Source of the DNA: Epinephelus fuscoguttatus
Lineage: Eukaryota > Chordata > Actinopteri > Perciformes > Serranidae
Assembly: GCF_011397635.1 (NCBI RefSeq)
Contig: NC_064772.1
Coordinates: forward strand, 13,717,035-13,781,034
Length of the DNA stretch: 64,000 nucleotides
Direction of reading: 5' to 3'
Shown here: positions 39,131 through 57,422 of the stretch, piece after piece
Layout of the letters: each line of letters starts with the position of its first letter
How positions within the stretch are numbered: the stretch's first letter is position 1
Made by a program: the position numbers and the translations under genes
Notes under the pieces: generated by a model
The model's database searches: none
Seen by the model: the letters and a program-made list of their open reading frames with translations, nothing else
Told to the model about the DNA's origin: nothing

Positions 39131-42100
39131 ATGGAGGAATCAGATGAGGACGTAGCTGTTATTGGGATTGGATGCAATTTCCCTGGAGGTAAGACGCAAG
39201 TATTTCTATTTTCTTTAAGGTAATATTCTTTGTTGTTTGTTTCACCAGTGGTTTCTTGAGGTCAATTATTGGTATTCTGGTCCATTTTATTTTAGGTGAG
39301 GGGTTGGACAACTTCTGGAGGGTTCTTTTGGAGGGAAAGAACTGTGTTGTAGATATTCCAGCAGAGAGATTTGACACCACGTTTTGGTACAATGCTGATG
39401 ATAGCAAACCTGGAAAGACACAGACAAGCAAAGCAGCTCTTATAGAAGGGTAAGTGTTAACCTATTAAAGGAAAACTTCACCCCCCAGATGACCATTTGT
39501 ATATCAGTTACCCACTCCGTGTTATGTTGAATTTGTGAAGGAGACTTTGTTTTTCTTGCATGCCTCCACAGTGAACGAAGAATCCAAAAGTGGAGACATT
39601 TCTTGATGAATTAAAATAAAAGGGGTCTGTGTTTAACAACAGCAAAACTATATTAAAACATCCATTTACAAATTCTCACACAACTTGTGCAGTATAATCA
39701 AGTGTCATGTATCCAGTCATATGCTTAGTGCAGCCCACACAGCCTTTTCTGGCAGGGAATTAAAAGTAAAGTGATATCTTCACTTTGATTTTAGTCGGAA
39801 GGGGCTGTCTGTTTGGAAAGTAAGCATACAACTGGATAAATGAGACTCTGATTATATACATGACCTGTGTGAGAGTTTCTAAACAGATGTTTTGATATAG
39901 TTTTGCTGTTTGCGGACCTCTATTGATTCAATTCATCAAGAAGTTTCTCAGTTTTTGGATTCTTTGTTCACCCGAGGCATGTGAGAAACAAAGTTTCCTT
40001 CCCAATTTCAACAAAATGTGGGTGATTAATTGATACACAAGTGGTCATTTGTGGGTAACGTATTCCTTCAGGAGTGGGTGTTAAAATTCCATGGAGAGAT
40101 GTTTGACTTATGATGGATCTGCTATTTTCATATTGCAGGTTCAATGAATTTGATCACAAATTTTTTGGCATTACTGAAGCAGAGGCTGATTTCATGGACC
40201 CCCAGCAGAAACTCCTTCTGCAGTGTACATACAGGGCATTAGAAGATGCGGGAATGGTGATGGAAAGCATAAGTGGAGGCAGAACTGGAGTTTACATAGG
40301 TGACCAATACTGTTCTATGATATACTCAAAATCAGCACAATTTCATGATACATAAATTGTGATGTTCTCTGCTTTTGTAATGGTGTTTCAGGTCTGATGA
40401 ACAGGGATTATGAGATACTACGAAGTAACAGTCCCAACACGATAACCCACTACAACGGCACTGGGACGGCCATGAGTGTGGCCGCCAATAGAATATCCTT
40501 CACATTTAATCTTACTGGCCCTTCATTTGCTGTTGACAGTGCCTGTTCTTCATCTTTAGTGGCTCTACATTTAGCCTGCCAGGCTATAAAGCAAGGTACG
40601 TGGGTCTCTTTTGCATTGCAAATGTTATGCCTAAAAGCATCACACACTCAAATGTTCCATGAACTCTCTTTTTCAACTAGGAGACTGTGAGATGGCTCTA
40701 TGTGGAGGTGTGAGCTGTATAATAGAGCCAAGAATGTTTGTTGCCCTCAGCAAGGCAAAGATGATCTCACCTGAAGGGACCAGCAAACCTTTCTCAAGCA
40801 GAGCAGATGGTTATGGCAGAGGGGAGGGCTGCGGGGTCGTTCTCCTGAAGCCTCTGAAAAATGTAAGCAAGTATTCTGTTTATCTTTGACAGTCATTTCA
40901 TAACATTTATAAATCCTATACAGTACAGATAGTCTGTTTATAATGTGACTTTCTCTACAAAGGCCACAAAAGACTGCAACAAAATATGGGGTATCATCAG
41001 CAAAACAGCGGTCAACCAAGATGGTCATTCAGTCACTCCAATAACCAAACCATCCATGACTCAACAACAGGAGCTGTTGCAAAGAATCTACTCGAAGTCT
41101 GACCTTGCAAATGTCCAGTACATAGAAGCACATGGGACTGGAACCCCAGTTGGAGATCCAACAGAGGCAGGAAGCATCTCAAATGTCATCGCTAAAGCCA
41201 AACCTCGTGGTTCAAAGACACTGTGGATTGGCTCTGTAAAGGGCAACATTGGACATACAGAATCTGCAGCTGGAGTGGCTGGACTTATTAAGATTCTCTT
41301 AATGATGAAGCATGAGACCATTGTTCCTTCAGTTTTCTACTCAGAGGACAGTGCAAGCATTGATGCAAAAGCTCTGAGTATAAGTATCCCCATTAAGGCT
41401 GAAAGTTGGGAGACAAATGGGTCATTAGGAAGAGTAGCGGGGATAAACAGCTTTGGCTTTGGAGGCACAAATGCACATGCGATTGTAAGAGAGTCCAGAC
41501 AGGCCACAGTTCCGACACAGATCCCAAAAGCTTGTCCAAAACTCTTTGTAATATCTGCAGCCTCTGAGAAATCACTTATCCTGTCCATTACTGACACCCA
41601 GCAGAAGCTTTGTAGCAATCAAACAGTTGACATACAGGCACTGTCATACACGTCAGCATGTGGAAGGAATCATTCTCGGCACAAATTTAGGAAGGCCTTC
41701 CTAACATCTTCCCTTTCAGATCTAGAATATCAGCTGACTTCTGCATTAAAAACAAACGTTGAGTCTATAAAGTCTGACATCCAGGTGGTGTTTGTATTTT
41801 GTGGAAATGGGGTTGCGTACAAGGGTATGTGCAAGCAGCTCCTGAGGGAGGTTCCTGTCTTCAGAGATAAGGTCAGAGAAGTTGAGAATCTTTTCCAGAG
41901 TCATAAAAGCATCAGCATCAGTCAGTGGCTTGATGGTAAATATGATAATGGTGATTTTAGCAAGCCCAGTGTTGTCCAGCCACTTCTCTTTGCAATACAG
42001 GTTGGCATTGCCGCTCTCCTAAAGCACTGGGGTGTCAAACCAGATGCCGTGCTTGGACATTCTGTTGGTGAGGTTGCTGCTGCTCACTGTTCTGGTTTCT

Positions 42101-57200: not shown

Positions 57201-57422
57201 TTTCTGATCTAGTAATGTTAAAATTATGCAATTTCTAAGGTTTTGGTCGTTTATTCTAAAGTACATTGTGGGAGACAGAAAAAAAGCTTTAACTGGCAGA
57301 TTTGTTGATAAAATAATAAACATATAAGAAAACACAACTAAGTTACCAAATTTAAATAGCTTACCGCCTGGGAAATTGCAGCCGATGCCGACCACTGCAA
57401 TACTGTCTTCAACTTCTTTCAT
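48202..57422 (-). CDS. Animal type I polyketide synthase, copy 2
   Basis: This is a paralogue of copy 1 in inverted orientation. Coding exons in transcript order are 57422-57365, 56946-56793, 55960-55800, 55143-54937, 54767-54586 and 53754-48202, giving 2,104 aa. Domains and motifs: KS (CACSSS Cys177, HGTGTP, NIGHTE), AT (GHSVGE Ser619, YHSHMMDP), DH ([11 protein letters not shown]is918, LDYLMQ Asp1084), pseudoKR, ER-like with SSVPDSA (near 1546) in place of the Gly loop, KR (AGGLSGLG from 1739, Tyr1884 in NYAAAN) and ACP (Ser2039 in LGIDSM) with an acidic tail. There is no thioesterase. The DH motif has Asp922 where HxxxGxxxxP has Gly. The exon 4 donor is a weak GTCTGT. The ATG follows a TTTCTTTCTCAG acceptor at 57,442, so a noncoding leader exon lies upstream. 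Intron 5 contains a DNA transposon. Confidence 0.93.
53927..54426 (-). mobile_element. Helicase-fragment-bearing DNA transposon, copy B (in PKS2 intron 5)
   Basis: It has 11-bp direct repeats TAACATTTATG at 53,916-53,926 and 54,427-54,437. The ends are TAGCCTGGAAATCC and the inverted CCCTGGAAATTTC, as in copy A at 22,983. The minus strand reads [20 protein letters not shown], then shifts frame relative to copy A before the Walker A region, so this helicase fragment is decayed. It is about 500 bp. Confidence 0.8.

Follow-up and report, generated by a model that had tools for sequence, protein, structure and literature searches.

The window analyzed here (the whole stretch of 64,000 nucleotides) carries two animal type I polyketide synthase (PKS) genes, A and B, which we consider likely to form an ancient linked pair whose KS half has been converted between the copies, with A encoding the enzyme that makes the otolith nucleator and B a PDZ-docked enzyme that would yield a different, or differently delivered, polyketide. 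A fuller version, which is possible and which we advance tentatively, would have B docked by its C-terminal STRL to apical scaffolds of the NHERF/PDZK1 type, an old ray-finned-fish feature lost as pks1 specialized, with continual conversion keeping the KS half (and, if true, with it the chain-building chemistry) common to A and B while loading, reduction, and delivery diverge. Only a handful of polyketides are known from vertebrates, and the pair allows a direct comparison between one copy with a known function in the ear and one conserved copy with none known. The pair itself is already on record, being annotated in many fishes and represented by OlPKS and OlPKS-2 of medaka (excerpts of PMC4604110). 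It is not new because the two medaka proteins, and likewise two of fugu, carry consecutive accessions (excerpts of PMC4604110), Dicentrarchus (E6ZJA8 and E6ZJA9) and Pampus (consecutive locus tags) have consecutive entries among the matches listed, and many further pairs lie on contigs listed as equally long. For the C-terminal motif of B and the KS conversion tract, no report was found among the top-ranked results of the open-access PMC literature searched.

Gene A (39131-46458, forward strand; 2,084 aa) and gene B (48202-57422, reverse strand; 2,104 aa) each comprise six exons and lie tail to tail, their facing stops 1,743 bp apart (Table 1). The large exon 6 of each is an open frame, the two on opposite strands, to which five short upstream exons were joined. 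Exon lengths of 58/154/161/204/182/5496 nt in A and 58/154/161/207/182/5553 nt in B account for the complete proteins plus a stop codon; internal stops are absent, GT-AG borders are present at all 10 of the 10 introns, and the intron positions match, with phases 1,2,1,1,0 common to both genes. The models thus bear out the first-pass annotation, which had described two full-length, tail-to-tail animal type I PKS genes with open frames and five coding introns at matching places and phases. Its further proposal that one copy arose by inverted duplication of the other stands with respect to paralogy and common descent, but the introns show neither a date nor a recent origin of one gene from the other. 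Because medaka olpks also has six exons (excerpts of PMC4604110), the intron match appears to reflect a pattern common to the family. When the window was searched with A as the query (tblastn, E 1e-3), only A and B were matched; the two proteins are identical at 1157 of 2064 aligned residues (56%).

Table 1. Positions of the PKS exons and associated features in the window.
Feature	Position	Strand	Basis
Gene A (pks1 orthologue), exon 1	39131..39188	+	Gene model; start like that of the E. coioides orthologue P0123
Gene A, exon 2	39296..39449	+	Gene model
Gene A, exon 3	40139..40299	+	Gene model
Gene A, exon 4, with KS active-site Cys (aa 176)	40392..40595	+	Gene model, catalytic residues
Gene A, exon 5	40681..40862	+	Gene model
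Gene A, exon 6: KS end, AT, DH, ER region without NADPH motif, KR, ACP, stop	40963..46458	+	Pfam, gene model
Likely conversion tract in A, aa ~200-380 (coding parts 40701-40862 and 40963-41343)	40701..41343	+	Fourfold sites, 100-nt exact run; coordinates by hand from exons
Gene B ('fasn2' clade), exon 1	57365..57422	-	Gene model; start like that of the E. coioides orthologue P0003
Gene B, exon 2	56793..56946	-	Gene model
Gene B, exon 3	55800..55960	-	Gene model
Gene B, exon 4, with KS active-site Cys	54937..55143	-	Gene model, catalytic residues
Gene B, exon 5	54586..54767	-	Gene model
Gene B, exon 6: KS end, AT, DH, ER region without NADPH motif, KR, ACP, C-terminal tail, stop	48202..53754	-	Pfam, gene model
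Likely matching conversion tract in B (coding parts 54586-54747 and 53374-53754)	53374..54747	-	Fourfold sites; coordinates by hand from exons
Ser-Thr-Arg-Leu C-terminus of B, class I PDZ-ligand motif	48205..48216	-	Gene model, tail conservation
Interval between both stops (1,743 bp), AATAAA/ATTAAA sites on both strands	46459..48201	.	Sequence
FtsH/YME1-type metalloprotease exons	34313..36613	+	Peptidase_M41 in two frames; PDB best matches FtsH and yeast YME1

Homologues were collected with A, B, and a salmon protein as queries, each list being the best 120 of nearly 8,000 scored matches; zebrafish, birds, and marsupials are not among these best 120, and their absence there carries no meaning. 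The salmon-protein search added gar, bowfin, sturgeons, tarpon, eels, otomorphs, and a second salmonid set. Among the matches listed, the nearest proteins are those of Epinephelus coioides, identical to A at 2038 of 2084 residues and to B at 2070 of 2104. A first tree of 240 listed matches and the two window proteins, when split at its midpoint, had 119 members on the A side and 123 on the B side, and the clade counts given below refer to 118 A-clade and 121 B-clade members among the matches listed. Gene A groups with medaka-type olpks and otomorph pks1 in the pks1 clade, which confirms the relation to the fish otolith gene that had been noted at first reading, and B falls outside it in a separate 'fasn2' clade of its own with salmonid copy 2. 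Rooted on sturgeon, a FastTree tree likewise joined acanthomorph B with salmonid copy 2 and acanthomorph A with salmonid copy 1 and otomorph pks1. Bootstraps (FastTree) were run on aa 381-2084 of 29 hand-chosen sequences, excluding the KS tract described below. Acanthomorph B with salmonid copy 2, A with otomorph pks1 to the exclusion of B, and teleosts apart from gar, bowfin, and sturgeon were each recovered in 40/40 replicates, and the placement relative to tarpon and Paramormyrops had local support of just 0.10 to 0.85. Because the A-clade and B-clade groupings were each found in 40/40 replicates, we place the A/B duplication, on these trees, before the otomorph/euteleost split. The comparison across teleosts thus upholds the earlier view of the genes as paralogues but shows that their age had been understated. 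Fourfold-site identity outside the tract (0.38) is near saturation and unsuited to dating by silent divergence. The A-clade protein P0218 (Oryzias sinensis) has 2,051 aa, the same as olpks, and starts with MEDGIAVV, an N-terminus that reverse complementation of the medaka first-Met morpholino, done by hand, also yields. In Sebastes umbrosus, two B-type proteins (P0006 and P0016) are on contigs listed as equally long.

Pfam matches on the large exons, together with the five short exons that complete the KS, identified KS, AT, DH, KR, and ACP in A and B, so that both have the KS-AT-DH-(ER)-KR-ACP order of animal type I PKSs in one chain. The catalytic residues of KS, AT, KR, and ACP are kept in both, as had been noted earlier, and so are the His and Asp of DH. 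An ER domain is expected to carry a glycine-rich NADPH motif; the ER regions of A and B have none, with SSNSAS or SSVPDS at the expected place, and no thioesterase (TE) is among the Pfam matches of either protein. Gene B is the orthologue of acanthomorph proteins annotated as 'Fatty acid synthase 2' or fasn2, and presumably of OlPKS-2, but in contrast to that name it is not a canonical FASN; without a TE and a recognizable ER cofactor motif, membership in animal fatty acid synthase (FASN) is ruled out. Because the catalytic residues are kept while a TE and a recognizable ER cofactor motif are lacking, A and B would be iterative, partly reducing PKSs that build on acetyl and malonyl units and retain double bonds, by analogy with MuPKS (budgerigar psittacofulvin) and duck ApPKS, the vertebrate iterative PKSs that they resemble. 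MuPKS yields unsaturated C14-C18 acyl precursors, which was ascribed to its inactive ER, and duck PKS loads acetyl and malonyl units, its KS and KR making 3-hydroxybutyryl-ACP (excerpts of PMC6334511). Birds have mainly one PKS gene (excerpts of PMC6334511), whereas two old paralogues are present in fish. In B, Asp replaces the Gly of the DH motif. Among the matches listed, the four commonest residues at this position are Asn (43), Asp (38), Gly (31), and Ser (4) in the 121 B-clade proteins and Gly (95), Ser (9), Asn (8), and Asp (2) in the 118 A-clade proteins. Given this Asp, the DH of B may be altered, in agreement with the DH of OlPKS-2 being marked as missing a residue (excerpts of PMC4604110).

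Near-identity of A and B that includes silent sites is limited to the second half of the KS (aa ~200-380). Shared fourfold sites are identical at 68 of 82 positions (83%) in aa 200-372 compared with 174 of 457 (38%) outside, and the tract edge is sharp at aa 380. For silent-site clustering, none of 5,000 shuffles matched any of four scan statistics or the longest run (24), and the four longest exact A/B DNA runs (100, 63, 41, and 38 nt) all lie within aa 219-380, the 100-nt run at aa 347-380. Intron 5, which interrupts the coding sequence of the tract, is unlike in the two genes, measuring 100 bp in A and 831 bp, with a transposon piece, in B. The between-species test used 66 hand-made species pairs (Cyclopterus lumpus included) among the matches listed and was made on proteins only, with no DNA of other species. 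Among these matches, at aa 251-370 no other B was as close to own A as own B in 23 of 130 species-windows (10/64 at aa 251-310 and 13/66 at aa 311-370) compared with 12 of 770 in the other 12 windows (Fisher p 1.5e-12, relatedness ignored), and own A and own B were mutually closest in 17/130 versus 0/770 elsewhere. Over aa 195-370 as a whole, own B was closest in 13 of 66 listed pairs and mutually so in 9, the rest being without such signal. Residues shared by own A and own B but absent from the other species shown occur in Spinachia, Gasterosteus, Mastacembelus, and Betta. A tract-only tree recovered the B clade in 0/60 bootstraps, Gasterosteus A with B in 51/60, acanthomorph A with B in 29/60, and Diretmus A with B in 19/60. 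In the between-species proteins, the paralogues of one species are thus closer than orthologues within a bounded tract, as in a gene-conversion pair. Because the mutual best matches are bound to the tract, we conclude from these comparisons that gene conversion recurs, the C-terminal KS half being repeatedly homogenized between A and B while other domains diverge, and that it is not visible in every species.

In the window proteins no within-species excess was found in the tract (0.892 to own B versus 0.895 to the best other B, among the matches listed), and the case for conversion in the window rests on silent sites and residue 364. This residue is Ile in A, the sole case among the 118 listed A-clade proteins (E. 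coioides A has Val), and in nine listed B-clade proteins, including B itself and E. coioides B; it is also Ile in five cyprinid-type pks1 proteins of the wider set, and the residue alone can recur. Because the Ile of A sits inside the 100-nt exact run, a recent B-to-A event in the window is likely. The tract would represent conversion between inverted paralogues, restricted to one half of an enzyme and repeated in several fish lineages, and because of it KS-only trees can mislead on orthology. The transposon-like piece in intron 5 of B (53755-54585) is 87% identical over 496 nt to a copy at 22980-23473, and the frame of this copy near 23 kb matches a DEAD/DEAH helicase. Tarpon (Megalops cyprinoides) has four PKS proteins (P0245, P0246, P0247, and P0254) on contigs listed as equally long, three of which are close in the KS tract and well diverged elsewhere, perhaps through the same conversion.

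A near-identical KS segment might also arise by selection at the RNA or DNA level, acting on splicing signals or codon use, or by strong protein constraint, and the KS is highly conserved, aa 191-250 being ~90% identical both within (0.905) and between species (0.897); moreover, silent sites were compared in the window's own DNA alone. We nevertheless judge this explanation quite improbable, in view of the drop in fourfold identity at a sharp edge, the species-private residues shared by A and B in the four genera named above, the confinement of mutual best matches to aa 251-370 among the matches listed, and an Ile364 that links window A to window B and E. coioides B, not to E. coioides A or the other 116 listed A-clade proteins. 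That one copy is a misassembled or allelic duplicate has virtually no chance of being correct: A and B are only 56% identical in protein, dozens of fishes have separate orthologues of each, and the two genes lie on contigs listed as equally long in 46 of 65 tabulated pairs (the window and two unnamed contigs included; unequal in 4, value missing in 15). The protein identity and the separate orthologues of each copy rule out a recent duplication as well as a misassembled allele.

For gene A, a role can be read from its orthologues. The gene pks1/OlPKS (medaka ha; zebrafish csr, nco, and vns) is required for otolith nucleation (excerpts of PMC4604110 and PMC6531356), the mutant regains otoliths when given extracts from an olpks-expressing fungus, and none of the catalytic domains of OlPKS is dispensable (excerpts of PMC4604110). 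Because otoliths are missing in medaka whose A orthologue does not work (excerpts of PMC4604110), nothing else replaces A. Window A shares with pks1/OlPKS its clade, domains, six exons, and similar length and, judging from medaka and zebrafish, would act in the otic vesicle to make a small, lipophilic nucleator of otoliths. B differs in belonging to the separate clade, and we infer its identity with medaka OlPKS-2 only from the consecutive accessions and the DH mark.

The B tail meanwhile has the sequence of a class I PDZ ligand, [ST]-x-hydrophobic, and its orthologues keep this end. Among the matches listed, a [ST]x[VILMF] C-terminus is present in 111 of 121 B-clade proteins versus 0 of 118 in the A clade, and 93 of the 121 end in TRL, STRL being the commonest form; several of the ten non-fitting B-clade tails resemble truncated or wrong models by eye. 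Across 110 fitting tails selected on positions 0 and -2, Arg occupies the unselected position -1 in 105 and Ser occupies position -3 in 86. The ~20 positions before the motif carry about 0.7 to 2 bits each, as in a loosely conserved linker, and 60-72 residues separate the ACP motif from the C-terminus in most B tails. Outside the B clade, [ST]x-hydrophobic ends were found in gar, bowfin, 4/4 tarpon, 1/4 sturgeon-type, and 3/5 salmonid copy-2 proteins, whereas the sampled otomorph pks1, Paramormyrops, eels, 3/4 sturgeon-type, and 2/5 salmonid copy-2 proteins do not fit. The simplest reading is that the motif is old, was kept in B, and was lost in A. Docking of B would occur via a predicted PDZ ligand. 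Its STRL end resembles the C-terminal TRL of the PDZ-ligand proteins NaPi-IIa and CFTR, which are membrane proteins, whereas B is predicted to be soluble, as is its enzyme family. The tail may dock B on a PDZ scaffold of the NHERF/PDZK1 type under the apical epithelial membrane, from where its product would be released into the lumen; B is probably scaffold-anchored at the epithelial surface, as judged from the sequence of its tail. In the otic epithelium of medaka, the A enzyme lies apically (excerpts of PMC4604110) though the A clade is without the tail, so apical position in general does not require such a tail. The tail of B points to a candidate class of partners and hence to tissues worth examining.

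Peroxisomal signals of the PTS1 type have the form S/A/C-K/R/H-L/M at the C-terminus, and the tail of B, with a basic residue at -1 and Leu at 0, could be read as PTS1-like, the more so as 3 of the 121 listed B-clade proteins end in SRL. However, Thr at -2 in 106/110 fitting tails and Phe as the last residue in 9/110 suit a class I PDZ ligand better, and gar (YTQF), tarpon (YTEF, YTQL, and YTEL), and one salmonid (STVL) keep the [ST]x-hydrophobic end without the basic residue. The B tail does not have the PTS1 sequence, and it is unlikely that B works inside peroxisomes. We are similarly doubtful that B is a dispensable relic, open but unexpressed. Its ~2,100 codons are open, the catalytic residues are kept with few exceptions in the 121 B-clade sequences listed, and TRL is retained at the end of a linker that is itself loosely conserved. 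Two full-length B-clade proteins (P0091 and P0122), complete from exon 1 to the tail, come from contigs (2,093 aa on 8,164 nt and 2,090 aa on 6,496 nt) too short for five introns of ordinary length, as in cDNA, and would represent transcripts. What speaks for a relic is that OlPKS-2 and -3, the other two medaka pks genes, were reported as unexpressed in embryos and adult tissues and were marked as missing a DH residue (excerpts of PMC4604110); this counts against a role of B in medaka.

If B is instead the docked, active enzyme that we favor, it would make a different or differently delivered unsaturated polyketide. Distinct products or tissues for A and B stay plausible because nothing else replaces A in otolith formation, although the medaka non-expression weighs against them. 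No description of the function of fasn2/OlPKS-2-type proteins was found in the open-access literature searched.

The frames of the FtsH/YME1-type protease, presumably yme1l1, end about 2.5 kb before A, and further exons of it extend upstream to about 31614 by eye only. The bird PKS adjoins RAB18 and YME1L1 (excerpts of PMC8616904), and because a YME1-type gene adjoins both gene A and the bird PKS, the locus appears to be shared with birds. Further out than the protease are a Greatwall-type kinase exon (26641-26991, reverse strand) and an Abl-interactor exon (485-847, reverse strand), and a 404-aa frame (20599-21810, reverse strand) without a Pfam match looks by eye like part of the Greatwall kinase. 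On the side of B, a frame ~1 kb upstream (58327-58770, reverse strand; no Pfam match) resembles a decayed LINE reverse transcriptase by eye, and another (62563-62943, reverse strand), with no Pfam or PDB match, resembles by eye a short-chain dehydrogenase of the retinol dehydrogenase kind.
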